Below, in pieces: positions 8,914 to 31,934 of a stretch of DNA of 32,391 nt. The stretch comes from an uncultured Pelagibacteraceae bacterium. GTDB lineage: Bacteria; Pseudomonadota; Alphaproteobacteria; Pelagibacterales; Pelagibacteraceae. The stretch covers positions 1-32,391 of the forward strand of contig CACJWS010000013.1 of assembly GCA_902596975.1 (NCBI GenBank). Reading direction: 5' to 3'. The notes below the pieces were generated by a model. It saw only the letters and a program-made list of their open reading frames with translations, was not told the DNA's origin and did not search any database. A program made the translations under genes and the position numbers. Numbering within the stretch: position 1 is the stretch's first letter; each line of letters opens with the position of its first letter.

Positions 8914-9521
8914 AAAAAAATAAAATCTCAAAAAATTGGATTAATAAGCAGAGAAGAGATATTTATGTTAGACAATCAAAAGTTGAAGGATATAGATCAA
9001 GAGCCGTTTATAAGTTGAAGGAAATTAACGAAAAATTTAAATTTTTAAAAAATAATATATCAGTAATAGATCTTGGAGCTGCTCCTGGAAGCTGGTCTCA
9101 ATATATATCAAGTAATTTAAAATGTAATAAGCATTTAGCAATAGATTTAAAAGAAATAGAAGAAATAAAGAATGTAAAAATTTTAAAAGGAGATTTTACA
9201 GATACTGAACAACAAAATAAAATTAATAATTATTTTGGTGGAAAAATTGACCTAATTATTTCAGATATGGCAGTCAATACAACTGGAAATAAAAATCTAG
9301 ACTCTATGGTAACTGGAGAATTAGTTTTAGAAGCTTTGGATTTTGCTACCAAAATGATGAAGCCAAATGGCTATTTTGTCTCAAAATTATTTATGGGAAC
9401 TTCTTTTAATGAAATAATAGCATTTTCAAAAAAAAATTTTGTAAAATTTAATGTTTATAAGCCTCCCGCAAGTAGAAAAGATTCTAAAGAAAGTTTTTTA
9501 ATTTGTAAAAATTTAAGATAG
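8910..9521 (+). CDS. rlmE: 23S rRNA (uridine-2'-O)-methyltransferase RlmE
   Basis: RlmE (FtsJ/RrmJ) methylates the 2'-O of U2552 in the 23S rRNA A-loop at a late step of 50S assembly. The 203 residues include the catalytic lysine in GYRSRAVYKL (K35), the SAM site VIDLGAAPGSWSQ, the catalytic aspartate in ISDMAVNTTGN, the lysine in FVSKLFMG and the glutamate in SKESFLICK, giving the K-D-K-E tetrad. The start is TTG at 8910, overlapping the upstream stop as TTGA. No ATG lies in a position that would keep the conserved N-terminus, so translational coupling to the upstream gene is likely. Confidence 0.93.
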   Translation: MKKNKISKNWINKQRRDIYVRQSKVEGYRSRAVYKLKEINEKFKFLKNNISVIDLGAAPGSWSQYISSNLKCNKHLAIDLKEIEEIKNVKILKGDFTDTEQQNKINNYFGGKIDLIISDMAVNTTGNKNLDSMVTGELVLEALDFATKMMKPNGYFVSKLFMGTSFNEIIAFSKKNFVKFNVYKPPASRKDSKESFLICKNLR

Positions 9522-9558
9522 ATACTTTCATTTTTTAAGGAATCGTTTATATAAGGAC

Positions 9559-16577: not shown

Positions 16578-17059
16578 TATTTTGATTTTTTAGACCCGTC
16601 TATCACACCCTTTAGCTGATTATATTCTTCACAATTACATCCCTCTAGAACACTCAATCTTTCTTTTGCTAAATTCATCCTATTGGTTGCAACATATAAT
16701 TCACCTAGATATTCATTAATTCCTATGTGATTTGGCTCAATTGCTAAACCTTGAAGATAATATTTCTCACCATTTTCAAAATCACCAATTTTTCTTGTTG
16801 CAAATCCTAGATAGTTTAAAGTATCTGCTTTATTTGGTTTCATCTTATTTGACTTTACCAAAAATTTAATTGCTCTTTCGTATCTTTTAATCGCTTTCTC
16901 AGTTTTACCTTTTTTTTCTAATTTTTTTGCTATTTTTATTTGTTGTACAGCTTTATCATATAAAGTTTCCTTTGAGCTCGAGTCACTTGAACCAGCAGCA
17001 AAAGATGTTCCAGCTAAAAAAATTAAAAAGAGCATTGAAAAAAATATTTTTTTTATCAT
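16574..17059 (-). CDS. Secreted TPR-repeat protein downstream of pxpA
   Basis: The 161-residue protein has a signal peptide (MIKKIFFSMLFLIFLAGTSFA), a serine-rich linker, and then TPR units: KAIKRYERAIKFLVKSNKMK, DTLNYLGFATRKIGDFENGE and HIGINEYLGELYVATNRMNL. A cysteine pair (CNC) lies near the C-terminus. The start shares one base with the pxpA stop (TAATG), so it is coupled to pxpA. It may be a periplasmic adaptor; no specific function can be assigned. It is distinct in sequence from the TPR protein between guaB and guaA, though both are short, secreted and end with a close cysteine pair. Confidence 0.8.
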   Translation of the reverse strand: MIKKIFFSMLFLIFLAGTSFAAGSSDSSSKETLYDKAVQQIKIAKKLEKKGKTEKAIKRYERAIKFLVKSNKMKPNKADTLNYLGFATRKIGDFENGEKYYLQGLAIEPNHIGINEYLGELYVATNRMNLAKERLSVLEGCNCEEYNQLKGVIDGSKKSKY

Positions 17060-17832
17060 TATTTAAATTTCCTTAAGTTAGTTAGTGTTTTTAGTTCTAA
17101 GCCATGATCTATTAAATTATTTTTTATAGATATAGCTGTAGACAGTGAACTTTTATTATCCCCATGTATGCACACAGAGTCTATTTCACAAGGTATTTGC
17201 TTTCCGCTGTGACAATTAATGGCCTGGTTCTGAACCATGCTTAAAACGTGACTTTTTGCTTTATCTGGATCTGTAATAAGTGCATGAGGCTCTTTTCTAG
17301 ATACTAAGTTTCCATTATCTTCATAATTTCTATCAGCAAAAATTTCACATGCTATCCTCATATCAAATTTCTTTGCAGCCTCTTCCATCTTTGAACCTGT
17401 CGGCACCAAATAGATTAAATCTTTGTTAAAATTGCAGATTGATTTTGCAATGATAGTTGCAAGTTCAATATCTTCGCAAGCCATATTATTTAATGCACCA
17501 TGTGGTTTAATATGTGTAACGATCTCACCATGTTTTTCAGCTATATTTTGTAAAATTTCATACTGATCAATTAATAATTTATTTATTTCATCTGACGATA
17601 AATTTAGTCTTTTACGTCCAAAGTTTTCTGGATCATTAAATGATGGATGCGCACCTATACTAACACCGTTTTTCTTACAAATTTTTACAACTTGGTTCAT
17701 GCTATCTTCATCACCAGCATGATAACCACAGGCAACATTTGCTGAATTGACAATTTCTAGTAATTTTGGATCATTTTCATCTGAATGATGCTTTGATTTT
17801 TCACCTAAATCACAATTGATATTAATTTCCAT
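17059..17832 (-). CDS. pxpA: 5-oxoprolinase subunit PxpA (LamB/YcsF family)
   Basis: Subunit A of the ATP-dependent prokaryotic 5-oxoprolinase, which opens L-pyroglutamate to glutamate together with PxpB and PxpC. The 257 residues show the family blocks NCDLGE at the N-terminus, SANVACGYHAGDEDSM, VSIGAHPSFNDPENFGRK, ITHIKPHGALNN, EIFADRNYEDNGNLVSR and VCIHGDN. The gene is on the opposite strand to pxpBC, 27 bp apart start to start, whereas pxpBCA are usually one operon. The TPR gene follows it. Confidence 0.94.
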   Translation of the reverse strand: MEININCDLGEKSKHHSDENDPKLLEIVNSANVACGYHAGDEDSMNQVVKICKKNGVSIGAHPSFNDPENFGRKRLNLSSDEINKLLIDQYEILQNIAEKHGEIVTHIKPHGALNNMACEDIELATIIAKSICNFNKDLIYLVPTGSKMEEAAKKFDMRIACEIFADRNYEDNGNLVSRKEPHALITDPDKAKSHVLSMVQNQAINCHSGKQIPCEIDSVCIHGDNKSSLSTAISIKNNLIDHGLELKTLTNLRKFK

Positions 17833-17859
17833 ACTAATAAATCATAAGTATAACATGGT

Positions 17860-18534
17860 ATGATAAAAAATATATTAAATCTTGGTGACGCAGCTTTGTA
17901 TTGCGACTTTGGAAATGATGTAAATCAAGAAATTAATTCAAATGTTATCAAATATTTTTACCATATAAAAAAATTAAATTTAAAAGGTATTACAAACTTA
18001 ACTCCATCTTATAATAAATTAGTAATTTCATATGATTTAAATATACATTCTTTTTTATCTTTAAAAAAAAAAATTGAAAATATAGAGATTAAAGAAGACA
18101 ATAAATTAGAAAAAAACTTAATCGAAATTCCTGTGTGTTGTGATAATAATTTTGCATTAGATATTAAAAGAGTTGAAAATAAACTAAAATTAAAATCAGA
18201 AATAATCTTAGAAAAATTTTTTAGCAAAAATTACTTTTGTTATATGACAGGATTTGTGGCTGGCATGCCTTTTCTTGGTGATCTTAACCAGGAAATGAGA
18301 TTAAAAAGATTAGAAACACCAAGAGTTAAAGTTCCAAAAGGTTCAGTTGGAATAACAGAACAATTTTGCAACATATACACTTTTGAAACACCTGGGGGAT
18401 GGAATATTTTGGGAAATACACCACAAAATATTTTCGACACATCTAATCAATCAAAACCTAATCTTGTTAATCCAGGCGATACAATAAAATTTTATAGAAT
18501 AACTTTAGATCAATATAATGAAATCAAAAGATAG
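17860..18534 (+). CDS. pxpB: 5-oxoprolinase subunit PxpB (KipI-like)
   Basis: Subunit B of 5-oxoprolinase, cyclophilin-like fold; formerly called allophanate hydrolase subunit 1 or KipI. The 224 residues contain IEIPVCCDNNFALDI, the signature FVAGMPFLGDL, RLETPRVKVPKGSVGI and ETPGGWNILGNTP. An A11 run at 18063-18073 sits within the frame (LKKKI) without interrupting it. It overlaps pxpC by 17 bp. Transcription would have to start within 27 bp of intergenic DNA or inside pxpA. Confidence 0.92.
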   Translation: MIKNILNLGDAALYCDFGNDVNQEINSNVIKYFYHIKKLNLKGITNLTPSYNKLVISYDLNIHSFLSLKKKIENIEIKEDNKLEKNLIEIPVCCDNNFALDIKRVENKLKLKSEIILEKFFSKNYFCYMTGFVAGMPFLGDLNQEMRLKRLETPRVKVPKGSVGITEQFCNIYTFETPGGWNILGNTPQNIFDTSNQSKPNLVNPGDTIKFYRITLDQYNEIKR

Positions 18535-19474
18535 AAACTACTTTAAAATTTTAAGAGCTGGTATCAACACCACATATCAAGACTTAGGAAGAAATAATTT
18601 ATACCATATTGGCATTCCTTTTAGTGGAGTGATGGATAAAAGAAATTTTCAATTGTTAAACTCACTTCTACAAAATGATTACAATTCACCTGTAATAGAA
18701 TTTGCTTATCAAGGCCCGCATTTGAAGTATTTTGGAAATGATATTTTTTTTTGTATTTCTGGAAATGTATCATTTAAAATTATAACGAAAGAGGGTGTTA
18801 TTGATGGTAATTCCTACCAATGTTACTTGTTAAAAAATGGTGATGAAGTCGATATACATTCAACCAACAAGTCTGTTTATGGATATTTTTCGATTAATGG
18901 AACTTTTAGTGTTGATTATTATTGGGGAAGCTGTTCAATAAATACACAAGCTCAAATTGGACCAAATAACGGGAATAAATTTTCTAAAGATTTAGAAATT
19001 GAAATAATTGATATTAATAATTCTTTTAACAAAAGAAAACTTGATTACTTAGGTAGCAGTATTGAAAATATAAGGGTCATTAAAGGCACAAACTATGATT
19101 ATTTTTCTAAGTCTTCACAAAACAAATTCTTTAAAGAAAGTTTTAAAATTACGAAACTTTCAGACAGGATGGGTATGAGATTAGAAGGTCCAAAAATTGA
19201 AAATATCGTTGATCCTAATATAAAATCTGAAGGTTTGGTAAAAGGTGTAATTCAAATAACATCTGCTGGAGATCCAATCATTATGTTATCAGATCATGGA
19301 ACTATTGGTGGATATCCGAAGATTGCAACTGTCATATCTGCTGACTATGATCGACTGGTACAATTAACACCAGGATCTAATATTAAATTTAAAGATGTAA
19401 GCTTAGAGGATGCTGAAACTTTATATAAACTCTATCAGATGGAGACTAACAATCTCATTTCTCAAATTAAATGA
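18518..19474 (+). CDS. pxpC: 5-oxoprolinase subunit PxpC (KipA-like)
   Basis: Subunit C of 5-oxoprolinase, biotin-dependent-carboxyltransferase-like fold (KipA, allophanate hydrolase subunit 2). Family blocks are NTTYQDLGRNNLYHIGIPFS, GVMDKRNFQLLNSLL, SPVIEFAYQGPHL, SDRMGMRLEGPKI and SEGLVKGVIQI with the closing GGYPKIATVISADYDRL. The length of 318 is normal. The start lies inside the end of pxpB and the stop overlaps the EamA gene (ATGA), so all three are coupled. Confidence 0.93.
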   Translation: MKSKDRNYFKILRAGINTTYQDLGRNNLYHIGIPFSGVMDKRNFQLLNSLLQNDYNSPVIEFAYQGPHLKYFGNDIFFCISGNVSFKIITKEGVIDGNSYQCYLLKNGDEVDIHSTNKSVYGYFSINGTFSVDYYWGSCSINTQAQIGPNNGNKFSKDLEIEIIDINNSFNKRKLDYLGSSIENIRVIKGTNYDYFSKSSQNKFFKESFKITKLSDRMGMRLEGPKIENIVDPNIKSEGLVKGVIQITSAGDPIIMLSDHGTIGGYPKIATVISADYDRLVQLTPGSNIKFKDVSLEDAETLYKLYQMETNNLISQIK

Positions 19475-20340
19475 ATTTAATTACAAAATTACCGGGACCA
19501 CTTTTGATTTTTTTTGGTGCTTTCAGTCTAAGTTTTGGAGGGTTGATAGTCAAATCTTTTGAAGGTTCTACCTTCTGGCAAATTCTATTTTGGAGATCAG
19601 TTTTTTTTATAATTGTAGTTCTGCTCTTTCTTATTATTAGTTATAAGCAAAATTTTATTTCAGCATTTTATAAATCTGGAATTCCTGGTCTTATTGGAGG
19701 CATTATACTTGCCTGTGGCTTTAGTGGTTATGTTTTTGCAATGTATAATACTACTGTAGCAAATACTAATTTTATAATTCAAACCCAAACATTATTTTTA
19801 GCAATCTTTGGATATATCTTTTTAAAAGAAAAAATAAACTTAATAACATTAACTTCTATAGTTCTAGCAATTTCAGGAATAATTTTGATGGTTGGAAGTT
19901 CTTTAACAGTTGGACAAATGAGTGGAAATATTGCTGCATTTATTATGCCAATATCATTTGCAACATTAATTTTAATAGTTAGAAAATTTCCAAGTGTAGA
20001 TATGGTTCCATTACAGTTTATTGCAGGCGTTATTGCATTGATTATCGGATATTTTATGTCTAAGACGATTTTTATATCTTTAAATGATATTTTTTTGGGA
20101 TTTTTAGCTGGTTTTTTCCAACTTGGTTTTGGATTTATATTTATCACAATAGGTGCAAGATCTACTCCCTCTGCTTTAGTTGGAATTATTATGTTATCAG
20201 AAGCGGTTCTAGGTCCTTTGTGGGCATGGATTTTTATCAATGAAAATCCACCATCAGCAGTAATACTTGGAGGAGCAATTCTTATTATTGCAGTTCTCGT
20301 TCAATTTTTATCTATTTATAAAACTAATAAGAAGTATTAG
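19471..20340 (+). CDS. EamA/DMT-family transporter
   Basis: An inner-membrane permease of 289 residues with ten predicted helices in two similar EamA halves, the drug/metabolite transporter layout. The first half begins GPLLIFFGAFSLSFGGLIVK and contains FWQILFWRSVFF; the second half contains PSALVGIIMLSEAVLGPLWA and WIFINENPPSAVILGGAILI, the usual C-terminal EamA signature. It is coupled to pxpC by an ATGA overlap, which suggests a role in import or export of an amino acid or its derivative. Substrate unknown. Confidence 0.88.
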   Translation: MNLITKLPGPLLIFFGAFSLSFGGLIVKSFEGSTFWQILFWRSVFFIIVVLLFLIISYKQNFISAFYKSGIPGLIGGIILACGFSGYVFAMYNTTVANTNFIIQTQTLFLAIFGYIFLKEKINLITLTSIVLAISGIILMVGSSLTVGQMSGNIAAFIMPISFATLILIVRKFPSVDMVPLQFIAGVIALIIGYFMSKTIFISLNDIFLGFLAGFFQLGFGFIFITIGARSTPSALVGIIMLSEAVLGPLWAWIFINENPPSAVILGGAILIIAVLVQFLSIYKTNKKY

Positions 20341-20352
20341 TTTATTCTTTTA

Positions 20353-21291
20353 ATGAAAAATAAAATTATTATATTATTTTTATTCATATTTGGTTTTAAT
20401 AATAATTCTTTTGCTACATTTAAATATAAAGTTGGAGATTTTGTTTCTGGTGGATTAAATATATCAAGCAAACATTCCATACCTTTAACCAAAGGAGATT
20501 GGCAAGTTATTTATTGGTATGGAGAGCATTTATTTAGAGGTATTCACGTTTATACTATAACTTTAGCACAAATTGAAAATAAGCAACCAACAAAAATTTT
20601 AGAAATTTCAAAAATAGATGGGTTGAGCGCTATCTATGGTTACATTAATCCAATAATAATAACTAGCACATTCAAATCAAAAAGACATGGTTGTGTTGAA
20701 AGATCTTATTACACCTTACTAAAATACTACAGGTCAAAAGGAGCAACTCATAATTGCCTATCTATAAAACACTATGATGTAAATTATGAACTTTATGAAA
20801 ATAACGATCCTAACCGTGACTTAGGCTATCTTATTAACTGGGCAAGAAAAAATAATTTAATTTTTCCAAAAACTTATTTAGGCTATGATCTCTCAGTTTA
20901 TATACCAAGAAAAAAAGACAGATGGTTAACTATTGATTACTTAGAAACACCCGAAAGTTTTGCAAACTATACCTCGTTATATGGATCTGAGACAAAAAGT
21001 GAATTTCATCCACAAAATATAAGAAATTATCCCAAAGCAAAAAAGGTAATGAATGATTGGGTAAATTATATTTCATCATACCATGAATCAATTGAGTTAG
21101 GCCTGAGAGTTGACGGTAAATATAAGTTGAAATTTGACAACATGTCACAAGTATCAAAAAATCTAAATAAGAATAATAAAAATAATAAAATGATATTAGA
21201 CTTAAAAAAACTTGATGATTTATATAAATCAGGAGTACTTTCAGATGAAGAGTTCAAAAAGCTGAAAAATAAAGTAATTAATTCAAACTAA
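20353..21291 (+). CDS. Unrecognised secreted protein with SHOCT-like C-terminus
   Basis: I do not recognise the 312-residue protein as a whole. A signal peptide (MKNKIIILFLFIFGFNNNSFA) precedes a compact, aromatic-rich domain (WQVIYWYGEHLFRGIHVYTI, RSYYTLLKYYRSKG) containing two cysteines about 20 residues apart (RHGCVERS and THNCLSIK), perhaps a disulphide in the periplasm. After a lysine/asparagine linker, the last 30 residues (LKKLDDLYKSGVLSDEEF) match the SHOCT oligomerisation motif. It is 12 bp after the EamA gene and immediately before the glycine riboswitch, with no terminator seen. Confidence 0.7.
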   Translation: MKNKIIILFLFIFGFNNNSFATFKYKVGDFVSGGLNISSKHSIPLTKGDWQVIYWYGEHLFRGIHVYTITLAQIENKQPTKILEISKIDGLSAIYGYINPIIITSTFKSKRHGCVERSYYTLLKYYRSKGATHNCLSIKHYDVNYELYENNDPNRDLGYLINWARKNNLIFPKTYLGYDLSVYIPRKKDRWLTIDYLETPESFANYTSLYGSETKSEFHPQNIRNYPKAKKVMNDWVNYISSYHESIELGLRVDGKYKLKFDNMSQVSKNLNKNNKNNKMILDLKKLDDLYKSGVLSDEEFKKLKNKVINSN

Positions 21292-21302
21292 TAAAAAAAC
21301 AG

Positions 21303-21331
21303 TAGATTAAAATTTATAAATAAACTATAGT
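21303..21331 (+). promoter_or_regulatory. Candidate promoter of the gcv riboswitch transcript
   Basis: Two -10-like hexamers lie just upstream of the aptamer: TATAAA (21315-21320) and TATAGT (21326-21331). The second lies in a perfect 12-bp palindrome AAACTATAGTTT (21322-21333) and has a weak -35-like TAGATT 17 bp upstream (21303-21308). Either would start RNA about 10 to 0 bases before riboswitch stem P1. Confidence 0.35.
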
Positions 21332-21335
21332 TTAG

Positions 21336-21476
21336 GTACGGGAGAATGGTTTGAAATAAAACCTGCCGAAGGAGCAACCACCCCGGAAACTCTCAGGCAC
21401 AAGGACCGTACATATTAACTCTGGAAAGAGAATTATTCTCGCCGAAGGAGCAAATCTCTCAGGCAAAAAGACAGAG
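21336..21476 (+). promoter_or_regulatory. Tandem glycine riboswitch
   Basis: Two glycine aptamers occur in series in the gcvT leader. Aptamer 1 is closed by GTACGG (21336-21341) with CCGTAC (21406-21411) and holds GCCGAAGGAGCAA (21365-21377) and CTCTCAGGCA. After a 7-base linker, aptamer 2 is closed by CTCTG (21419-21423) with CAGAG (21472-21476) and repeats GCCGAAGGAGCAAA and CTCTCAGGCAAAAAGAC. The 3' strand of the second P1 runs straight into GGGG before the gcvT start, so glycine binding could control ribosome access; no terminator hairpin is seen. In SAR11, glycine riboswitches are known ahead of the glycine cleavage operon. Confidence 0.97.
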
Positions 21477-21494
21477 GGGGCATAATGAGTTAAT

Positions 21495-22601
21495 ATGAGT
21501 ATAAAAAAAACATCGTTAAATAATCTCCACATCAAGTATGGCGCAAAGCTTGTAGAGTTTGCTGGATACCAAATGCCCATCCAATATAAAGATGGAATTA
21601 TACAAGAGCATAAATACACACGTTCACACTCTGGTATTTTTGATGTTTCTCATATGGGTCAATTATTTATATCGGGTGGTGATGATCTTACAAATGATCT
21701 TGAGAAGATTTTTCCTGCAGATTTGAAAAAATTGAAAACTAATCAAAGTAAGTATTCATTTTTAATGAATAACAAAGGAGGAATTCAGGACGATCTGATA
21801 ATTACCAAAACATCTGATGGATTTTTAATTATTTTGAATGCTGCATGCAAGTATAATGATTATGAAGTAATAAAATTTAAACTTGATAATCAATATAAAT
21901 TAAATCTTGACGAGTCATTGTCATTAATTGCATTACAGGGCCCCGAAGCAAAAAATGTTTTAAATAAAGTTATACCTGGTTGTGACAGTCTAAAATTTAT
22001 GAACGGAAACAACTATGTCTATAAAAATGAAAAAGTATATATAACTAGATCAGGATATACTGGTGAGGATGGATTTGAAATTTCTATAAAACATAGTAAA
22101 GCCGAAACTTTTGTAGAAAGTTTGATAGAAAATGGATCTAAATTGATTGGTTTAGGAGCAAGAGATACATTAAGAATGGAAGCTGGACTCTGCTTGTATG
22201 GAAATGATTTAGACAACGATACAAGTCCTATTGAAGCTAATCTAAAATGGGCAATACCTAAGAGCAGAATTGAGACTGAATTTGTTGGATCAGAAGTTTT
22301 AAAAAACCAATTTCAAAGCGGAGTAAAAAAATTGAGAGTTGGCATAAAACCAGACAGCAAAGTAATTGCTAGAGGAAATACCAAAATTTACAATGATAAA
22401 AATCAAGAAATTGGGAAAGTAACAAGTGGCACATTTGGACCAAGCGTTGAACATCCAATAGCAATGGGATATGTCGATAATAGTTATTCAACTGTAAATA
22501 CAAAAATATTTCTTGAAGTTAGAGGAAAAAAAATTCCCGCAAATATTTGTAACTTACCGTTTTATAAAAAAAATTACGTTAAAGGGGAAATTAATGTCTG
22601 A
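21495..22601 (+). CDS. gcvT: Glycine cleavage system T protein (aminomethyltransferase)
   Basis: Transfers the methylene group from aminomethyl-lipoyl GcvH to tetrahydrofolate, releasing ammonia. The 368 residues match the family throughout: [83 protein letters not shown] and the C-terminal [20 protein letters not shown] chose the ATG at 21495. An ATG at 21485, closer to the AGAGGGGG purine run, gives only a two-codon ORF (ATG AGT TAA). Controlled by the riboswitch immediately upstream; it overlaps gcvH by 8 bp. Confidence 0.96.
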
Positions 22602-22974
22602 AGTTAAATATTCAAAAGAACATGAGTGGATTAAACTAGATGGAGAAGAAGCTACAATTGGAATAACGAAGCATGCAACAGAAATGCTTGGAGATATAGT
22701 ATTTGCTGAACTCCCAGAGAAAGGTTCAAATGTTGATAAAGATGGAACTGCTGGAGTGGTTGAGTCAACGAAAGCTGCTAGTGACGTTTACACTCCTGTT
22801 AGTGGAGAAGTTATAGATACAAATCAAATGATAGTTGACGATCCATCAAAAATAAATGAAGACCCAGAAGAGTCTGCATGGTTTTTTAAACTTAAAATAA
22901 AAGACAAATCTGAAATGGATAGTCTTATGAGTAAAGAAGAATATGAAAAATTTGCAAAGGAGACATCAGCATAA
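22594..22974 (+). CDS. gcvH: Glycine cleavage system H protein
   Basis: Lipoylated carrier that shuttles the aminomethyl group between GcvP, GcvT and the L protein. It has 126 residues: [37 protein letters not shown], and the lipoyl lysine K60 in [19 protein letters not shown]. The true start is the ATG at 22594, preceded by the ribosome site AAAGGGGA; an open frame extends upstream to 22513 but that part merely overlaps gcvT in another frame and is not family-like. It shares one base with the gcvP start (TAATG). Confidence 0.97.
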
Positions 22975-25844
22975 TGTTACCAAATTCAGAAAAAGATTTT
23001 ATAAAAAGACACATTGGACCTTCTAAAGAAGACCAATCAAAAATGTTAAAAGAATTAAATTATCAATCAATAGATGATTTAATGAATAACACTGTTCCAG
23101 AAAAAATAATGTTTAAAGGTGAGCTTAATATCGGGGAGTCTAATTCAGAATATGAGGCGTTAAGAAAATTAAGAGCAATTTCAAAAAAAAATCACGTTTA
23201 CTCAAATTTTATTGGAATGGGTTATTATGGAACTTATACGCCATATGTAATTTTAAGAAATATTTTAGAAAATCCAGGTTGGTATACATCCTATACACCT
23301 TATCAGCCTGAAGTAGCTCAAGGAAGACTTGAGATGTTGTTAAACTTTCAACAAATGATTGTTGATTTTACTGGAATGGATATCGCTAATGCTTCTTTAT
23401 TGGATGAAGGTACAGCAGCAGCAGAAGCCATGGGTCTTAGTCATAGATTAAATAAAAAAGAAAGTGATTTAGTTTTTGTATCTGAGGATTGCCATCCTCA
23501 AACAATAAATGTAATTCAAACTAGAGCTGAACCTATGGGTTTAAAAGTTTTAGTTGGAAAAGAAGATGAAGTTTTAGACCAATTAAAAGAAGATCTGGTT
23601 TGTGGAATTTTACAATATCCTGGAACTTTAGGAGATATTAAAGACCCAAGTGAGGCAATTAGCAAAATTCATAAAAAAAACGGTAAGGCTGTATTAGCTT
23701 GTGATTTATTAGCTTTAGCAAAATTAAAAACACCAAGAGAACTTGGTGCTGATATAGCAGTAGGAAGCTCTCAGCGATTTGGAATACCGATGGGGTATGG
23801 AGGTCCACATGCAGCATTTTTTGCAACTAAAGACGAGTATAAAAGATCGATGCCTGGTAGAATTGTTGGTGTGTCAGTTGATAGACATGGTAACAAGGCA
23901 TACAGATTATCTTTACAAACTAGAGAGCAGCACATCAGAAGAGATAAGGCGACAAGCAATATTTGTACTGCACAAGCTTTATTAGCAATTGTTTCAGCAG
24001 CATATGCTATTTATCATGGTCCAGATGGAATTAAAAATATTTCTGAAAGAGTTTCTCAGTTAGCAAAAAGTTTTGCTGATAAAATAAAACAGTCAGGTTA
24101 TGAAATTTATTCTGATTATTTTTTTGATACTGTTACAATTATTACTAAAGAAAAGACTGATCAAATTTATAAAAATGCTCTAAATCAGAAAGTTAATATA
24201 CGAAAAGTAAATTCTGAAATGCTTGCTGTCTCTTTCGATGAAAGAAAAAACGTTTATAGAGTAAATCAATTATTAAAAATTTTTAATGCTGCAGAATCAA
24301 TAAAAAAAGAAGATCCTTCAGTTAAATTACCTAATTTACCAAAAAATTTATTAAGAACTTCAAAATATTTAGAGCATCCAATTTTTAACTTATATCATTC
24401 AGAAACTGAAATGCTTAGATATCTTAAAAAGCTAGAGGATAAGGATATAGCATTGAATAGAACTATGATAGCACTTGGTTCGTGCACAATGAAGTTAAAT
24501 GCTGCTGCTGAAATGATCCCGATTTCTTGGAAAGAATTTGCAGAACCTCATCCTTTTGTTCCAGTTGAACAAATGGAAGGTTTTAGAGATTTGTTTACTG
24601 ATTTAAAAAATTGGTTGAGATCAATAACAGGTTTTTCTGGTGTCTCTCTACAACCTAACGCAGGCGCTCAAGGAGAATATGCAGGTCTAATGGTTATAAG
24701 AAAGTACCACTTAGATAGAGATGAAGCTCATCGTAATATATGTTTAATCCCAAGTTCGGCACATGGTACAAATCCAGCAAGCGCACAAATGGTTGGAATG
24801 AAAGTCGTTGTTGTTAATTGTGATAAAGAGGGGAATGTAGATTTCGATGATTTAAAGAAAAAAGTAGAGCAACATTCAGAAAATCTTGCAGCTTTAATGG
24901 TAACTTACCCATCTACCCATGGAGTATTTGAGGAAAAAATAACTGATATTTGTGAGTTAGTTCATAAACATGGTGGACAGGTCTATATGGATGGAGCAAA
25001 TTTAAATGCCCTTGTTGGAGTTGCAAAGCCTGGAAATTTTGGTCCAGATGTTTGTCATATTAATCTGCATAAAACATTTTGTATTCCTCACGGTGGTGGT
25101 GGACCTGGAATGGGACCTATAGCTTGTAAAAAACATTTACAAGTTTACCTGCCTAATCATCCAGTAATAAAAGATTGCGGACCAACAAGTGGAATTGGAG
25201 CAGTATCAGCAGCTCCCTGGGGTAGTTCAAGCATTCTATCAATCTCTTGGATGTATATTAAAATGATGGGATCAGAAGGATTAAAGCTTGCTACTCAAGT
25301 TGCAATTTTAAATGCAAATTATATCGCTCATAGACTTAAAGATCACTTTCCTATTTTGTACAAAGGTGCAAATGGCAATGTTGCACACGAGTGCATAATT
25401 GATATTAGAAATATTAAATCTGAAACAGGGGTAACTGAAGAAGATATTGCTAAAAGAATGATAGATTTTGGATTTCACGCACCAACTATGTCATGGCCTG
25501 TAGCTGGCACTATGATGATAGAGCCAACTGAAAGCGAAGGGTTATCAGAAATAGACAGATTTTGTGACACTTTAATTAAGATTAAACAAGAAATTGAAAA
25601 AATTAAATCAGGTGAATTTGATAAAATTGATAATCCAATTAAAAACGCTCCTCACACTGATACTGAATTATCATCAGATGTATGGGAACATAAATATTCA
25701 AGACAAGAAGCAGCATATCCTGCAAGTTTTTTAAAACAAAACAAATTTTGGCCTCCAGTTGCTCGGGTAGACAATGTTTATGGAGATAAAAATATATTCT
25801 GCACATGTCCAAGTATGGATGAGTTTAAAGAAGACGCAGCATAG
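22974..25844 (+). CDS. gcvP: Glycine dehydrogenase (decarboxylating), P protein
   Basis: PLP enzyme that decarboxylates glycine and loads the aminomethyl group onto GcvH. At 956 residues it is the fused single-chain form. The N-terminal half begins FIKRHIGPSKEDQSKML and includes FIGMGYYGTYTPYVILRN and LDEGTAAAEAM. The C-terminal half includes SCTMKLNAAAEM, PSSAHGTNPASAQMVGMKVV and the PLP lysine K700 in CHINLHKTFCIPHGGGGPGMG-type sequence. The end, FWPPVARVDNVYGDKNIFCT, is also typical. The next gene starts 5 bp after its stop, without a terminator. Confidence 0.98.
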   Translation: MLPNSEKDFIKRHIGPSKEDQSKMLKELNYQSIDDLMNNTVPEKIMFKGELNIGESNSEYEALRKLRAISKKNHVYSNFIGMGYYGTYTPYVILRNILENPGWYTSYTPYQPEVAQGRLEMLLNFQQMIVDFTGMDIANASLLDEGTAAAEAMGLSHRLNKKESDLVFVSEDCHPQTINVIQTRAEPMGLKVLVGKEDEVLDQLKEDLVCGILQYPGTLGDIKDPSEAISKIHKKNGKAVLACDLLALAKLKTPRELGADIAVGSSQRFGIPMGYGGPHAAFFATKDEYKRSMPGRIVGVSVDRHGNKAYRLSLQTREQHIRRDKATSNICTAQALLAIVSAAYAIYHGPDGIKNISERVSQLAKSFADKIKQSGYEIYSDYFFDTVTIITKEKTDQIYKNALNQKVNIRKVNSEMLAVSFDERKNVYRVNQLLKIFNAAESIKKEDPSVKLPNLPKNLLRTSKYLEHPIFNLYHSETEMLRYLKKLEDKDIALNRTMIALGSCTMKLNAAAEMIPISWKEFAEPHPFVPVEQMEGFRDLFTDLKNWLRSITGFSGVSLQPNAGAQGEYAGLMVIRKYHLDRDEAHRNICLIPSSAHGTNPASAQMVGMKVVVVNCDKEGNVDFDDLKKKVEQHSENLAALMVTYPSTHGVFEEKITDICELVHKHGGQVYMDGANLNALVGVAKPGNFGPDVCHINLHKTFCIPHGGGGPGMGPIACKKHLQVYLPNHPVIKDCGPTSGIGAVSAAPWGSSSILSISWMYIKMMGSEGLKLATQVAILNANYIAHRLKDHFPILYKGANGNVAHECIIDIRNIKSETGVTEEDIAKRMIDFGFHAPTMSWPVAGTMMIEPTESEGLSEIDRFCDTLIKIKQEIEKIKSGEFDKIDNPIKNAPHTDTELSSDVWEHKYSRQEAAYPASFLKQNKFWPPVARVDNVYGDKNIFCTCPSMDEFKEDAA

Positions 25845-25849
25845 CCTTA

Positions 25850-27088
25850 ATGCGAATAGCAGTAATTGGATCAGGAATTTCTGGTTTATCAGCAGCACAA
25901 AAGCTTTCCAAAAAACATCACGTTGATTTATTCGAAAGTGAGGATCATTTTGGTGGTCATTCATATACTTTAGATACTTTAATTAATGGTAAAAAAATTC
26001 CTGTAGATATTGGCTTTATTGTTTTTAATCATGAAACTTATCCAAATCTCATAAATTTTTTTAAAGAATTAAAAATTGAAATTGAAAAAAGCGATATGTC
26101 ATTTTCTGTTTCTGTAAAAGATACAAATTATGAATATTGTGGCAGAGGTTTAAACGGAATTTTTGCAAATAAAGCTAATCTTTTTAATTTAAAATTTTTA
26201 AAAATGTTTTTTGATATTATAAATTTCTACAAAAAGTGTGATCAAATTAAAAGTTTAAATGAAGAGATTACTCTTGGTGAATTTCTTGAAAAAAATAAAT
26301 GGTCAAAAAATTTTATTAATTTTCATCTAATCCCAATGGTTTCTGCTATCTGGTCTATGCCCCCAGTAGAAGCAAATCAAATGCCAATTAAATTTTTTTT
26401 AAAATTTTTTCAAAATCATGGACTTTTTAAATTAAAAAATAGACCACAATGGTACACAGTCACCAATAGAAGTAGAACTTATGTAGAGAAAGTATTAACT
26501 CAAATAAGTGGAGAATATTTTAAAAATTATAAGATTAGTTCGATAAAAAGAAATAAAATTGGTGTTCAAGTATATTACGGTGCTAGTAACGAATTTTTTG
26601 ACTATGATAAAGTTGTCATCGCTACTCATGCAGACGATGCATTGAAAATTTTGAGTGAGCCGACTGAGGATGAAAAAAAAATACTTTCAAATTTTAAATA
26701 TAAATCCAATCTAGCAGTAATACATACTGACGATGTATGTATGCCAAACAATAAAAAAGTTTGGTCTTCATGGAATTCCTCAGTTGATAAATCAGATATT
26801 AGTAAGACATCATTAACTTATTGGTTGAACTTATTACAAAATCTGAAGACAGAAAAAAATATTTTCTTAACCTTAAATCCTTTTTTTGAAATAGATCAAA
26901 AAAAAATCCTACAAAAAGTTACTTTTACCCACCCTTATTTTGATCAAGATGCTTTGAATAATCAAAAATTATTAAAAGAAATACAAAATAAAAGAAATGT
27001 ATTGTTTTGTGGAAGTTATTTTGGTTACGGTTTTCATGAAGATGGAATAAAATCATCCATTAATATGATTGAAAACCTAAATGATTAA
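25850..27088 (+). CDS. FAD/NAD-binding oxidoreductase of the Cfa/DUF1365 cluster (COG2907 type)
   Basis: A 412-residue flavoprotein of the amine-oxidase-like superfamily. The N-terminal dinucleotide fold has the motif IGSGISGLSAAQKLSKKH, followed by FESEDHFGGHSYTLD and IPVDIGFIVFNHETYPNL, the predicted NAD/FAD-binding family found beside DUF1365 and Cfa genes. The C-terminus has FCGSYFGYGFHEDGIKSS, the FAD-contacting end. It probably oxidises or desaturates an acyl chain in the lipid modification pathway; the reaction is inferred from the neighbours only. It follows gcvP by 5 bp and overlaps the DUF1365 gene by 8 bp. Confidence 0.85.
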   Translation: MRIAVIGSGISGLSAAQKLSKKHHVDLFESEDHFGGHSYTLDTLINGKKIPVDIGFIVFNHETYPNLINFFKELKIEIEKSDMSFSVSVKDTNYEYCGRGLNGIFANKANLFNLKFLKMFFDIINFYKKCDQIKSLNEEITLGEFLEKNKWSKNFINFHLIPMVSAIWSMPPVEANQMPIKFFLKFFQNHGLFKLKNRPQWYTVTNRSRTYVEKVLTQISGEYFKNYKISSIKRNKIGVQVYYGASNEFFDYDKVVIATHADDALKILSEPTEDEKKILSNFKYKSNLAVIHTDDVCMPNNKKVWSSWNSSVDKSDISKTSLTYWLNLLQNLKTEKNIFLTLNPFFEIDQKKILQKVTFTHPYFDQDALNNQKLLKEIQNKRNVLFCGSYFGYGFHEDGIKSSINMIENLND

Positions 27089-27848
27089 AAATTCCAATAT
27101 TTACGAAGGTAAAGTAATTCATAAAAGATTTAAGCCAAAATATCATTTTTTTAAATACAACGTTTTCTCACTCTTTTTAGATCTTGATGAAATTAATTTG
27201 ATACAAAAAAAAATTAAAATTTTTTCTAACAATAGTTTTAATATTTTAAGTTTTTATGACAAAGATCACGGACCAAGAGATGGTAGTGATTTAAAAGCCT
27301 GGGTAATAGAAAATTTAAAATCAAACAACATTCAATTTGAAAACATAAAGGTAAAATTGCTTTGTTATCCTAGAATATTTGGTTACGTATTTAATCCATT
27401 AAGTATTTTTTTCGTTTATGATAATCATTCAAAAATTATAGCTATATTGTATGAAGTTAAAAATACATTTGGTGAGCAACATACTTATATATTTAAAGTC
27501 AACGACGAAAAAATAATTACAAATAGCTGTGAGAAGAAGTTTTTCGTTTCACCATTTATTGAAATGAAAAGTAAATACAATTTTAGAATCCTCAAACCTG
27601 AAAAAATGTTATCCGTAATAATTGATCAAAGTGATAAGGAGGGAAAATTGTTATATGCTTCACAAGATGGGGTTGCAAAAGAAATTAACAATAAAAATAT
27701 GCTTATATCTTATATTTCTCACCCTTTAATGACCTTTAAAGTTATTGCCGCAATTCATTTTGAAGCATTAAAATTATGGTTAAAGGGAGTTAAGTTAGTT
27801 AAAAAAAACATAAAAATAAAAAATAATATTACGTTTGAAAAAAAATGA
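27081..27848 (+). CDS. DUF1365 family protein
   Basis: The 255-residue protein matches DUF1365 (COG3496): IYEGKVIHKRFKPKYHFFKYNVFSL-type N-terminus, LDLDEI, DHGPRDGSDLKAWV, LLCYPRIFGYVFNPLSIFFV and VKNTFGEQHTYIF. The conserved histidine/asparagine residues suggest a binding or catalytic pocket, but the biochemical role is not established. The family nearly always sits between a COG2907 flavoprotein and a Cfa-like methyltransferase, as here. Overlaps both neighbours (8 bp and ATGA, 4 bp), so the stoichiometry is probably fixed by coupled translation. Confidence 0.88.
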   Translation: MIKNSNIYEGKVIHKRFKPKYHFFKYNVFSLFLDLDEINLIQKKIKIFSNNSFNILSFYDKDHGPRDGSDLKAWVIENLKSNNIQFENIKVKLLCYPRIFGYVFNPLSIFFVYDNHSKIIAILYEVKNTFGEQHTYIFKVNDEKIITNSCEKKFFVSPFIEMKSKYNFRILKPEKMLSVIIDQSDKEGKLLYASQDGVAKEINNKNMLISYISHPLMTFKVIAAIHFEALKLWLKGVKLVKKNIKIKNNITFEKK

Positions 27849-29026
27849 ATTTTAATCTTTTGTCAGATAAAATCGTATTTAATTCTCTAAAACTAATAAA
27901 GCATGGATTTCTTGAAATTCAAAATCATGACAGCAAAATATATAAGTTTGGTAATGTGAGTGAACAATTAAGAGCAAAGATTAAAATTAACAAACCTGGT
28001 TTAACACTTCAAATAATAAAATCGGGAAGTGTTGGACTTGCAGAAGCGTACATGCGAAATGAATTTGAAACAGATAATCTAACTAATCTAATAGAAATAA
28101 CAGCTAAAAATATAAAAATTGTCTATAAATTTTCAGGTATTTTTGATTTATCAATGATTAATAAATTAAAGAGTATTTTCATAAAAAATAATAAGAGTAG
28201 AAGTAAGAAAAATATTTCAAAACATTATGATTTAGGAAATGATTTCTTTTCATTATGGTTGGATCCTTCACTTACTTATTCAAGTGCAATTTTTGAAAAA
28301 CAAAAAGACGATTTATTTTCTGCTCAACTAAATAAATATAAAAAGCTTACAGAATTAATAAAGCCAAACGTAGGAAATAAAATTTTAGAAATTGGCTGTG
28401 GCTGGGGTGGCTTTGCTGAATATGTGGGTAAAAATTATGATGTAAAATTAGATTGTATAACAATTTCTAAAGAGCAATTTGAATTTTCAAAAAAAAGAAT
28501 ATTTGAAAATGGATTGAATGAAAAAGTGAATATATTTTTGAAAGATTATAGAGATGTAAAAGACAAATATGACTCTATCGCATCTATAGAAATGATAGAA
28601 GCGGTTGGGCAAAATTATTTAGTCAATTATTTTAAAAGTATTAAAAAAAATCTATCTGAGAATGGAAGGGCCGCGATACAAGCGATAACAATCGATGATA
28701 GTTTATTTGACAGATATAAAACCAAAGAAGACTTTATACAAAAATACATATTTCCTGGAGGTTTTTTGCCATCAAAAAGAAAATTATATGATTTATCTAG
28801 TAGCAACGGTTTAGAAATTAAAAAATATGAGTCATATGGCTCTCACTATTCCAATACTTTAAAAATATGGAGAGATGAATTCCTAAAAAAATGGGAAGAG
28901 ATTTCAAAACATGGATTTGATAATAAATTTAAACGTATGTGGCATTTTTATTTGTCATATTGTGAAGCTGGGTTTAAATCAAAGAATATAGATTTAATTC
29001 AATTTTCCATGCAAAATAAAATTTAA
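27845..29026 (+). CDS. Cfa-like SAM-dependent fatty acid methyltransferase
   Basis: A 393-residue member of the cyclopropane-fatty-acyl-phospholipid synthase family, which moves a methyl carbon from SAM to the double bond of an acyl chain in membrane phospholipid. The SAM motif is ILEIGCGWGGFAEYVG; KHYDLGNDFFSLWLDPSLTY and KYIFPGGFLPSKRKLYDLS are family blocks. By alignment from memory to E. coli Cfa, active-site C139 (YSCAYW) is serine here (YSSAIF) and bicarbonate-ligand H266 (LHTIG) is glutamine (IQAIT), while the glutamate of MFEHVG is kept (MIEAVG). These changes fit the branch that makes methylated rather than cyclopropane lipids, but I cannot prove that. Confidence 0.88.
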   Translation: MNFNLLSDKIVFNSLKLIKHGFLEIQNHDSKIYKFGNVSEQLRAKIKINKPGLTLQIIKSGSVGLAEAYMRNEFETDNLTNLIEITAKNIKIVYKFSGIFDLSMINKLKSIFIKNNKSRSKKNISKHYDLGNDFFSLWLDPSLTYSSAIFEKQKDDLFSAQLNKYKKLTELIKPNVGNKILEIGCGWGGFAEYVGKNYDVKLDCITISKEQFEFSKKRIFENGLNEKVNIFLKDYRDVKDKYDSIASIEMIEAVGQNYLVNYFKSIKKNLSENGRAAIQAITIDDSLFDRYKTKEDFIQKYIFPGGFLPSKRKLYDLSSSNGLEIKKYESYGSHYSNTLKIWRDEFLKKWEEISKHGFDNKFKRMWHFYLSYCEAGFKSKNIDLIQFSMQNKI

Positions 29027-29027
29027 T

Positions 29028-29576
29028 ATGATTAACAAAAAACTTTTTAAAGTATTTTTATTGATAATTTTCACAGGATTAATTACAAGCTGTATAAATA
29101 ATCAATCTATGAAACCAGAAGATTTTAAAGATCAAAAACCAAGACTAATAATTGAAGAATATTTAAGCGGAAACGTCAAAGCTTGGGGTATACTACAAAA
29201 CAGATCAGGTAAAGTTACAAGACAATTTTCAGCAGACCTAGACGGTAAGTGGGATGGCAAACAACTTATATTAGACGAAAAATTTATTTGGAATGATGGT
29301 GAAATACAAAATAGGCAATGGGTAATAGATAAAATTGATGAACATAATTACGAGGGAACTGCAGGCGATGTAGTTGGTAAGGCTAGGGGGTATTCATATG
29401 GCCCAGCATTTAAATTTGAGTATGTTTTGTTAGTTCCTGTGAAAGGAAAAAATATCAAAATTACTTTTGATGATTGGATATTTATGCAAGACGAAAGAGT
29501 AGCTATAAACAGAGCTAAGATGACAAAATTTGGAATTAAAGTTGCAGAGTTGACTGTGATGTTTGTTAAAGATTAA
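29028..29576 (+). CDS. DUF3833 family lipoprotein
   Basis: A 182-residue lipoprotein: signal MINKKLFKVFLLIIFTGLIT with lipobox ITSC and the lipidated cysteine at C22. The mature part matches DUF3833, with LSGNVKAWGILQNRSGKVTR, FIWNDGEIQNRQW and the strongly conserved DDWIFMQDERVAINRAKMTK near the C-terminus. A lipocalin-like beta-barrel that binds or moves a modified lipid is possible but unproven. One base after the Cfa-like gene; ends 2 bp before the convergent SDR gene. The family is commonly linked to the same FAD/DUF1365/Cfa set. Confidence 0.87.
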   Translation: MINKKLFKVFLLIIFTGLITSCINNQSMKPEDFKDQKPRLIIEEYLSGNVKAWGILQNRSGKVTRQFSADLDGKWDGKQLILDEKFIWNDGEIQNRQWVIDKIDEHNYEGTAGDVVGKARGYSYGPAFKFEYVLLVPVKGKNIKITFDDWIFMQDERVAINRAKMTKFGIKVAELTVMFVKD

Positions 29577-29578
29577 TT

Positions 29579-30337
29579 TTATTTTTTTTGTAATTTAGTT
29601 AATTTCCGTATTAAATAAAAATATAATCGATCAGGTATTATTTTTAAAAATTTAAGGATCAAAGTTAATTCTTTTGGGTAGTGTATTTCAAAATTTGAAC
29701 CATTAATAAGCCCATCATAAATTTTGTCTGCCGAGAATTCTGGAGTTTTTAGAAAAGGCATCTTAAAATCATTCTTATCAGTCATTGGTGTTTTGATAAA
29801 ACCTGGAGAAACTAAACAAACCCTCACGCCATATCTTCCAAAATCAAAATGTAAACTTTCAGCAAGATTACTTAAAGCAGCTTTGGATGGTCCATAGCCA
29901 CTTGAGTTAGGTAAGCCTTTGTATCCTGCAATCGAAGATACAATGGTAATAATACCTTTTCCTCTTTCTCGAAAATGAGTTTCAACTGCTTTTATACAAT
30001 TTAATGTTCCAAAAAAATTTACTTTAAATACATTTTCAATTTGCTCTACATCAATTTCTTTTTCTTTTTTTGGATCCCAAGTTCCCGTAGAAAAAAAACA
30101 AATTTCGATGTCACCAAGTTCCTTTTTTATATTTTCAAAAACAGACTTACACTTTTCCTTATCATTTACATCAAGTGGAAAAGATTTAATATTTTGATGC
30201 TTATCTTCGATTTCTTTTAATAAATTTTCTCTTCTTGCAGAAATAGCAACTGTCCATCCATTATTAGCAAATTTTAACGCAAGTGCTTTGCCAATTCCTG
30301 TACTTCCGCCGGTGATCCAAATTACTTTTTTATTCAT
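29579..30337 (-). CDS. Short-chain dehydrogenase/reductase
   Basis: NAD(P)-dependent oxidoreductase of 252 residues, classical SDR. The nucleotide-binding motif is TGGSTGIGKALA; the catalytic site is S (VSSIAG), Y and K in SSGYGPSKAAL; VSPGFIKTPMT follows. An arginine pair after the first strand (SARRENLL) suggests NADP. The C-terminus is hydrophobic and basic, perhaps membrane-associated, which would suit a lipid substrate. It faces the DUF3833 gene and is divergent from tspO (24 bp). An SDR is a standard member of the same gene set in other Proteobacteria. Confidence 0.9.
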   Translation of the reverse strand: MNKKVIWITGGSTGIGKALALKFANNGWTVAISARRENLLKEIEDKHQNIKSFPLDVNDKEKCKSVFENIKKELGDIEICFFSTGTWDPKKEKEIDVEQIENVFKVNFFGTLNCIKAVETHFRERGKGIITIVSSIAGYKGLPNSSGYGPSKAALSNLAESLHFDFGRYGVRVCLVSPGFIKTPMTDKNDFKMPFLKTPEFSADKIYDGLINGSNFEIHYPKELTLILKFLKIIPDRLYFYLIRKLTKLQKK

Positions 30338-30361
30338 ATTTAACTGCTGTATAGTACTTAA

Positions 30362-30829
30362 ATGCTAAAAAATAAAATTTTATCTTTTATTCTCTTTGCA
30401 ATTACTACGTTTTCAGCTTCATTTATTGGAGGTTTGGTTACTATAAATTTTAAAGAACCTTGGTATTCAAATTTATCTAAACCTCAATACAATCCACCAG
30501 ATTGGATATTTGGGCCAGTATGGACATTACTTTATTTATTTATGACAATAGCCATATGGAATGCGTGGCATAAAAACACAAAAAATTTAAATATTGTATT
30601 TTTATATTTCATTCATCTTTTTTTTAATACAACTTGGAGTGTTGTTTTCTTTGGTTTCCATAATATTTCTTTAGCAATTTTAAATCTTGTTGTGTTAATT
30701 ATATTTATTGTTTTATTGGTATTTAAATATAAGAATATAAGTCAATTAAGCATGTACTTGATGATTCCATATTTGTTATGGTGTTGTTTTGCATTGCTTT
30801 TAAATATAAACATTTTTTTGATAAACTAA
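30362..30829 (+). CDS. tspO: TspO/MBR-family membrane protein
   Basis: A 155-residue protein with five membrane helices and the TspO signatures: WYSNLSKPQYNPPDWIFGPVWTLLY-type sequence in helices 1-2 and NTTWSVVFFGFHNISLAI in helix 3-4. TspO binds porphyrins and other tetrapyrroles; in Rhodobacter it takes part in light and oxygen responses, so a role in photo-oxidative stress next to this lipid cluster is plausible. The start is the ATG at 30362. The next gene starts one base after its stop. Confidence 0.93.
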   Translation: MLKNKILSFILFAITTFSASFIGGLVTINFKEPWYSNLSKPQYNPPDWIFGPVWTLLYLFMTIAIWNAWHKNTKNLNIVFLYFIHLFFNTTWSVVFFGFHNISLAILNLVVLIIFIVLLVFKYKNISQLSMYLMIPYLLWCCFALLLNINIFLIN

Positions 30830-30830
30830 T

Positions 30831-31934
30831 ATGGATGATGTTGTAATAGTAGGTGGTGGTATAATTGGAGCTGCAACTGCATACTTTATGTCCAAAGAAG
30901 GCAGAAAAGTAAAAGTCATTGAAAGGGATCCAACTTATAAAACTGCATCATTCCCATTATCACTTGGTGGATTTAGACGACAATTTTTTCAAAAAGAAAA
31001 TATTCTTTTAGGAAAATTTGCAAGGGAATTTATATTTCAAATACCAGAATTATTGAAAACTGAAAAAAATCCAAATCCAACAGCTAGCATGGTGCCCAAT
31101 GGATACCTTCTAATGTTTGGACCAGATCATGCAGAAGAGCAATACAGAGCTTTAGAAAATCATAAAGAATGTGAAGCGGGTACAAAAAATATTAAAGGTT
31201 CAGAATTGAAAAACTATTTTCCTTACATTAATGAGGAAGGAATTGAAACTGCAACATTTACTGATAACAAGAGCGAAGGATGGATTGATCCATTTTTATT
31301 TCATAGCGCTTTAAAGCATAAAGCAATTGATCTTGGGGCAGAATTTATTAAGGGAGAGGTTAAGAGCCTTTCCGAAATAAATGCAAAGACAATTATTTCT
31401 GCAGCTGGGTGTTGGACTAAGGAACTACTTGAAGATATTCCTGTAGTACCTCAAAAACATACAGTCTTTAGAGTTAAATGTCCTAAACATATTCCAGAGA
31501 TGCCATTGTCCGGAGATCTAACAACAGGAGTATATTGGCGACCAGAAGGAAAAGAATATTTAGCAGGCTCTCCAATTTCAGTCTTTGATGCAGAAGATCT
31601 CGAACCTGCATGGAATGATTTTGAAGAATTAGTTTGGCCTGCTCTTGCAAAAAGAATACCAGCATTTGAAGAACTAAAGTTAACAGGTGGATGGGCTGGA
31701 TATTATGATTGTAACAAATTAGATAATAATGCTGTTGTTGGAAAACATCCAAAATATGAAAATGTTTACATGGCCTCAGGATTTACAGGCAGAGGTTTAA
31801 TGCAAGCACCAGGAATTGGTAGAGCTCTAACTGAATTAATAACTACAGGCAGTTATCAAACTATAGATATTAGTGTTTTCGCAGTAGAAAGAGTATTAAA
31901 TAGCTCTGCAAGACCCGAGCCCTACGTCTTATAA
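30831..31934 (+). CDS. FAD-dependent oxidoreductase, DAO superfamily
   Basis: A 367-residue DAO-superfamily flavoenzyme, resembling the sarcosine/dimethylglycine oxidase and FOXRED1-like branch. Visible are the FAD motif VVIVGGGIIGAATAYFMSKE, ERDPTYKTASFPLSLGG, GWIDPFLFHSALKHKA in the middle, and the C-terminal TGGWAGYYD and MASGFTGRGLMQAPGIGRAL. It would oxidise an N-methylated or other secondary amino acid; the substrate is not readable. The distance to the glycine cleavage genes makes an N-methylglycine attractive but is weak evidence. It follows tspO by one base and ends 6 bp inside the minus-strand small ORF. Confidence 0.87.
   Translation: MDDVVIVGGGIIGAATAYFMSKEGRKVKVIERDPTYKTASFPLSLGGFRRQFFQKENILLGKFAREFIFQIPELLKTEKNPNPTASMVPNGYLLMFGPDHAEEQYRALENHKECEAGTKNIKGSELKNYFPYINEEGIETATFTDNKSEGWIDPFLFHSALKHKAIDLGAEFIKGEVKSLSEINAKTIISAAGCWTKELLEDIPVVPQKHTVFRVKCPKHIPEMPLSGDLTTGVYWRPEGKEYLAGSPISVFDAEDLEPAWNDFEELVWPALAKRIPAFEELKLTGGWAGYYDCNKLDNNAVVGKHPKYENVYMASGFTGRGLMQAPGIGRALTELITTGSYQTIDISVFAVERVLNSSARPEPYVL

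Follow-up and report, generated by a model that had tools for sequence, protein, structure and literature searches.

A predicted furan-fatty-acid cassette behind the glycine riboswitch operon of Pelagibacteraceae: probably two modules sharing one syntenic slot

The closest described relatives of the lipid genes considered here are ufaD, ufaO and ufaM of Rhodopseudomonas palustris (RPA2571-2569), which were reported to be sufficient for methylated and furan-containing chains in a Rhodobacter sphaeroides mutant, RPA2568 having been cloned along with them. In R. sphaeroides itself the furan lipid genes are described in the same source as part of the singlet-oxygen response (PMC7380195). The glycine riboswitch of SAR11 bacteria has been described separately; metatranscriptome reads begin at its P1 helix or no more than 15 nt ahead of it and connect it to gcvT, and earlier work cited there calls the switch glycine-activated (PMC5069720). 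Proteobacteria tend to translational riboswitch control, according to an account whose relevant part does not mention SAR11 (PMC6944388). Counterparts of both systems stand together in the stretch analysed here, the window, which comprises 32,391 nucleotides from an uncultured Pelagibacteraceae bacterium (GCA_902596975.1, contig CACJWS010000013.1; genome of 1.25 Mb, 92% complete). In it gcvT-gcvH-gcvP-FAD-DUF1365-CMAS-DUF3833 form one string behind a tandem glycine riboswitch, with neighbouring genes overlapping or at most 5 bp apart, FAD denoting the gene for an oxidoreductase dependent on flavin adenine dinucleotide. Named records whose FAD proteins match that of the window at up to 100% identity put it in Pelagibacteraceae (SAR11).

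The original prediction for this DNA held that a glycine-controlled message can include the lipid genes, and that glycine cleavage would feed lipid methylation. Its description of seven closely packed genes was accurate in calls, spacing and families alike. We consider it likely, at a probability of roughly 70%, that the string consists of two modules placed head to tail in one syntenic slot, and that any control of the lipid genes by glycine is at most weak and indirect, with no dedicated circuit. The seven genes are as follows.

21495..22601, plus strand: gcvT, aminomethyltransferase (NF010093 equivalog, above cut-off)
22594..22974, plus strand: gcvH (TIGR00527, above cut-off), with its own Shine-Dalgarno-like site and an 8-nt overlap with gcvT
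22974..25844, plus strand: gcvP (TIGR00461, 1440 bits), with a 1-nt overlap with gcvH
25850..27088, plus strand: UfaD-like FAD-dependent oxidoreductase, predicted fatty-acyl desaturase (PF13450/PF01593), after a 5-nt gap behind gcvP
27081..27848, plus strand: UfaO-like DUF1365 protein, predicted furan-forming oxygenase (PF07103, 252 bits), with an 8-nt overlap with the FAD gene
27845..29026, plus strand: UfaM-like CMAS methyltransferase (PF02353, 281 bits), with Gln at the E. coli Cfa His266 position and a 4-nt overlap with the gene before it
29028..29576, plus strand: DUF3833 lipoprotein of the same cassette (PF12915, 203 bits), after a 1-nt gap behind the CMAS gene

The junction between gcvP and the FAD gene is no assembly artefact, since it is present with a gap of 3-6 bp in 77 of the 80 named Pelagibacteraceae loci; of the remaining three, L053 starts at a contig edge, and L064 (on the same contig as L106) and L079 have no gcv here. 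A solid FAD match is present in 109 of 147 family genomes, six of the 115 with any match being left out as weak (G011, G029, G038, G046, G066 and G106). These 109 divide into 79 with gcvP adjacent, 18 with gcvP elsewhere and 12 without a gcvP match; gcvP matches in G027, G085, G112 and G125 were partial or weak and are not counted. Adjacency is therefore the state of 79 of the 97 family genomes in which both genes were located, with gaps of -1 to 15 bp, and these fall in genus groups g1, g2, g3, g4, g6, g8, g10 and g14; the 18 separate cases comprise 16 in g5, g7, g9 and g12, plus G096 and G098. Every gcvP-adjacent row falls in one clade of the FAD tree, and the junction marks one large SAR11 clade, so that the conservation in relatives which the original prediction proposed to look for is there. 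In other alphaproteobacterial families gcvP and the FAD gene are close in none of the 95 genomes with both genes, among the matches listed, the nearest pair being 20 kb apart (124 of 133 genomes with a FAD match were used, nine weak, split or partial ones being dropped, with one gcvP or GcvPB place per genome). Most loci likewise keep EamA ahead of gcvT and the SDR gene after DUF3833, and on this informal comparison the gcvP-ufaD junction does not stand out; several stretches of g4 and g1 lack the pxp genes that lie farther upstream.

Either gene set is also found in the slot without the other. In L079, L105, L106 and L123-L126 EamA is followed by the FAD gene, with the riboswitch and gcvTHP missing between them; L079 is a Candidatus Pelagibacter ubique contig, in which the two genes overlap by 4 nt, and in the others they lie within about 100 bp by match ends. 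In L127 about 2 kb separates EamA from ufaD, with gcvTHP found on a different contig (L128). A gcvT search of seven genomes returned only paralogues of about 30% identity in G083, G105, G073, G025 and G127, and a gcvT in G096 and G134. When gcv presence was placed on the FAD tree (74 rows, without near-copies, namely loci L003-L056 except three and rows more than 97% identical), six changes were needed at fewest, four of them forced by well supported branches. At least four independent lineages (L079, L105, L106/L064 and L123-L127) have the lipid genes with no gcv genes ahead of them. The reverse state is seen in L152, where gcvP is followed by the SDR gene, and in L153, L155 and L157, where it is followed by the DAO gene; those genomes have no FAD match and are 69-93% complete, and the stretches run through the slot. 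G126 (L154), which is not counted among these four, carries gcvTHP, and the 3.2 kb that remain before its contig ends contain no ufa match. Neither FAD nor gcvP was matched in G127 (97% complete), a state that would fit joint loss of both modules.

All in all, either module can persist in the absence of its partner, and the tie to glycine is therefore probably incidental. The architecture is real, and the metabolic logic proposed for it, glycine cleavage feeding lipid methylation, is not needed; that the modules also occur independently weakens it, gcv being absent upstream in at least four lineages and the cassette absent behind gcv in four genomes. A different gene order in close relatives, which would count against a coupling, is found in part.

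By families and order, the FAD, DUF1365 and CMAS genes correspond to ufaD-ufaO-ufaM of R. palustris, and all three components expected of a furan cassette, FAD oxidoreductase, DUF1365 protein and CMAS-type methylase, stand together. The active site of E. coli Cfa comprises Cys139, Glu239, His266, Ile268 and Tyr317. At these five positions the window CMAS has Ser, Glu, Gln, Ile and Tyr, which is not the Cfa signature. Gln occupies the His266 position in 76 of 76 distinct Pelagibacteraceae cassette copies and Ser the Cys139 position in 65 of them, and both residues are shared by all ten cassette methylases from other alphaproteobacterial families (11 stretches, with no methylase match in L166). 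A second CMAS gene of the Cfa type, elsewhere in the genome (L148, G000:C2:121521-122309), keeps Cys and His. Because Gln is present in all the cassette copies and Ser in most of them, and the second enzyme keeps Cys and His, the cassette methylase is unlikely to be a plain cyclopropane synthase, and its sequence looks like that of the UfaM step of furan fatty acid synthesis. Were it an ordinary cyclopropane synthase after all, the cassette would modify lipids in another way; its 35% identity to E. coli Cfa over 347 residues and its Pfam CMAS assignment would suit this, as would the counting of SAR11 strain HTCC1062 among strains with cyclopropanation genes in the part of PMC11813361 concerned with them. 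Set against the residues at the Cys139 and His266 positions, on which the plain Cfa reading was rejected, and against the accompanying FAD and DUF1365 genes in the R. palustris order, we regard this as highly improbable, and the cyclopropane chemistry implied by the earlier label ‘Cfa-like’ gives way to a resemblance to UfaM.

For DUF1365 no credible solved relative was found by sequence, the one match being at chance level, and the ChrR-linked relatives match the FAD and DUF1365 proteins at 41%. More distant ufaD-ufaO-ufaM sets lie elsewhere in genomes of g5, g7, g9 and g12 (L108-L122), with ufaD of about 40% identity in a separate FAD clade and no DUF3833 match in the stretches examined, some of which are short. 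In L129 the ufaD of G001 (8592-9614) has several in-frame stops and looks broken, with the gcvP in front of it intact.

The leader of gcvT holds the following elements, the region singled out by the original prediction beginning at 21336, a few bases inside aptamer I.

21329..21418, plus strand: glycine riboswitch aptamer I (RF00504; 67.4 bits, gathering score 32)
21411..21484, plus strand: glycine riboswitch aptamer II (RF00504; 53.5 bits, gathering score 32)
21411..21422, plus strand: 5' arm of a putative masking helix, pairing with 21486-21497, its last bases being also the 5' strand of aptamer II P1
21486..21497, plus strand: 3' arm of the same helix, containing the gcvT AUG (21495-21497), with the terminal pair mismatched in the window

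Both aptamers score above the gathering score and are followed by the glycine gene gcvT, as in a tandem glycine riboswitch, and a search of the 92% complete genome with RF00504 gave no match beyond these two. The 12 bases that open aptamer II are complementary to the 12 bases that end in the gcvT AUG. Across 48 of the 49 distinct leaders (L134 was dropped, as its start pattern was not found), 565 of the 576 cells hold standard pairs, compared with 546.9 on average and at most 557 when the 3' arms were shuffled among rows 1000 times; registers slid by 1-2 leave only 28-44% of cells paired. Since related sequences can beat such shuffles without structure, the better argument is provided by one pair that changed on both sides between genera (T-A in 36 leaders, A-T in 11, G-T in 1) together with five further pairs that become G-U in at least one leader. 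The masked state and aptamer II P1 are mutually exclusive because the 5' arm also forms P1, and the constrained leader folds are nearly equal, at -41.3 kcal/mol masked and -41.4 kcal/mol unmasked. The riboswitch probably acts on translation, through a start-codon-masking helix that appears to compete with aptamer II and that covaries. Such a helix fits a glycine-ON translational switch, in which the pairing is read from covariation and the direction and translational action are what we infer. As the helix would mask the gcvT start codon, the direct target suggested by the structure is gcvT translation and not message length, which departs from the ‘glycine-controlled message’ first proposed; a start-codon switch alone does not set how far transcription runs. 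A minimal frame, ATG-AGT-TAA at 21485-21493, was also considered before gcvT and dropped, being present in only 7 of 49 distinct leaders.

A terminator scan of 20300-31000 found five terminator-like sites against 3.7 in shuffles; both plus-strand sites lie inside gcvP and none lies between any of the seven genes, in agreement with the original prediction. A terminator between gcvP and the lipid genes was rejected, there being no room in 5 bp and none in the scan. Promoter-like matches are fewer than in shuffles (38 vs 60), and two on the plus strand, at 25372-25399 and 25488-25516, lie more than 330 bp upstream of ufaD. Synonymous conservation is not raised over the last 60 alignment columns of gcvP (z -1.3 to 0.8), nor in 8-codon windows. 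As a control, the gcvH end (32 rows), which holds the gcvP ribosome site, shows raised synonymous conservation with z up to 2.5, and a gcvT control run of only 10 rows, which was uninformative, shows no rise at its end despite the gcvH ribosome site there. A conserved internal promoter at the gcvP end, which the original prediction had named as speaking against it, was accordingly dropped for want of a signal, such tests being weak in AT-rich DNA.

Shine-Dalgarno-like 4-mers are present in 35 of 35 distinct upstream stretches of gcvH and 33 of 37 of gcvP, compared with 1 of 35 for ufaD, 0 of 11 for ufaM and 3 of 12 for DUF3833 (ufaO was left out of these counts because its aligned starts are uncertain). 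Since gcvH and gcvP have ribosome sites of their own and the string is free of terminator-like sites between genes, the lipid genes need not be gated by glycine, and the near lack of such sites at ufaD and ufaM, with few at DUF3833, makes the lipid genes look like low-level, coupled passengers. Run-on transcription from gcvP into the lipid genes is plausible from the arrangement.

The first module would thus be gcvTHP under a tandem glycine riboswitch in which glycine turns gcvT translation on. Without glycine, 21411-21422 would pair with the gcvT start region; with glycine, it would help to form aptamer II P1 and free the AUG. In the second module, as homology and gene order suggest, UfaM would methylate an unsaturated phospholipid chain, UfaD would then desaturate it and UfaO would close the furan ring with O2, and the DUF3833 lipoprotein would accompany this furan-fatty-acid cassette. 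Having no detectable promoter or ribosome sites, the second module most likely rides at a low level on an upstream transcript, either that of gcv or, where gcv is absent, that of the EamA-containing operon, and translation of the lipid genes would be coupled from gene to gene.

Two other views of the regulation have to be weighed against these independent modules, and they are not exclusive of the cyclopropane synthase alternative, which concerns chemistry. One is a dedicated coupling, in which glycine switches on gcv and lipid methylation on one message and glycine cleavage gives one-carbon units for S-adenosylmethionine (SAM). The junction conserved in a large clade, the lack of terminator-like sites between genes and of a conserved-site signal at the gcvP end, and the SAM spent at the UfaM step all suit it; but either module occurs in the slot without the other, the switch probably acts on a start codon and not on transcription, gcvH and gcvP have their own ribosome sites, and the gcvP-ufaD junction is no exception among neighbouring junctions that are kept too. 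We consider it improbable. The other, in which a promoter within the last part of gcvP drives the cassette and places it under separate control, perhaps by light or oxidative stress, is doubtful too. In its favour are the survival of the cassette through changes of upstream neighbour, the position of the cassette beside ChrR and a sigma factor elsewhere and the two plus-strand promoter-like matches. The lack of raised synonymous conservation at the gcvP end speaks against it, although a poorly conserved promoter would escape such tests, as does the deficit of promoter-like matches relative to shuffles. Moreover, the regulator that adjoins the cassette in other alphaproteobacteria is apparently missing here, because the 92% complete genome has two Sigma70_r2 matches (frames of 618 and 299 aa) and no ChrR match; ChrR was above cut-off in none of 14 family genomes, with weak partial matches in four. 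The pair of ChrR anti-sigma factor and extracytoplasmic function (ECF) sigma factor that would mark membership of a ChrR/sigma-E regulon was not found. For the cassette to be carried by the operon next to it makes sense as an outcome.

Several observations weigh against two independent modules or against parts of that account. The junction is kept across eight genus groups. An untranslated gcvT could trigger Rho-dependent termination that carries the glycine signal into ufa, so that glycine may be weakly coupled to the lipid genes by polarity. For the masking helix, the terminal pair is mismatched in 9 of 48 leaders, the window included, and the leader folded without constraints beats shuffles by a modest margin only (z -1.33). 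Directly 3' of aptamer II P1 is a G-rich stretch, and a Shine-Dalgarno-like 4-mer is present in 22 of 36 distinct gcvT leaders; if that stretch serves gcvT, the effect of glycine could be reversed.

Around the string, the SDR gene (minus strand) and then TspO and a DAO-family oxidase gene lie behind the cassette at 29579-31934 and are kept in most relatives. Ahead of the slot, at 17059-20340, are LamB/YcsF (minus), CT_C_D and CT_A_B (plus), presumably a 5-oxoprolinase-type set, and the EamA transporter. Between EamA and the riboswitch (20353-21291) is a 312-aa protein whose C-terminal SHOCT match falls just below cut-off and which is matched in 8 of the 80 named loci at 54-92% identity.

In the modular slot nature has run an experiment on the joining of genes to new operons in streamlined genomes, and the masking helix offers a testable mechanism for the SAR11 gcv switch. 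As the furan genes belong to the singlet-oxygen response in R. sphaeroides, SAR11 would be a candidate marine source of furan lipids. It seems quite improbable that SAR11 furan-lipid synthesis follows glycine supply, with glycine freeing gcvT translation, preventing polar termination on the gcv message and so raising UfaD, UfaO and UfaM; if true, one of the most abundant cell types of the ocean would tie a photo-protective membrane lipid to its one-carbon status. A literature search on SAR11 or Pelagibacter with furan fatty acids surfaced only dinoflagellate volatiles, and one for the HTCC1062 locus tags 0668-0672 found nothing; a link between SAR11 and furan fatty acids may be unreported in the literature searched.

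Compared with the described systems, the riboswitch is the one present upstream of gcvT (SAR11_0666) in Candidatus Pelagibacter ubique; strain HTCC1062 is described as having a second riboswitch at glcB (PMC2704228), the like of which the 92% complete window genome does not show. The lipid cassette is unmentioned in the parts of the accounts that deal with the SAR11 gcvT riboswitch (PMC2704228, PMC5069720). In Aminobacter niigataensis p2 and Azospirillum thermophilum the FAD-DUF1365 pair adjoins ChrR and a sigma factor, with an SDR gene on the opposite strand, and the cassette of A. thermophilum also has DUF3833 and a methyltransferase; the regulator genes are adjacent there, whereas here they were not found. 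The genes of R. palustris (RPA2571-2569) and R. sphaeroides (RSP1091, RSP1090 and RSP2144) encode the same DUF1365 and SAM-methylase families along with UfaD, and the order in SAR11 is that of R. palustris (PMC7380195). The SAR11 cassette, known here from its sequence, differs from both in lying behind gcvTHP.

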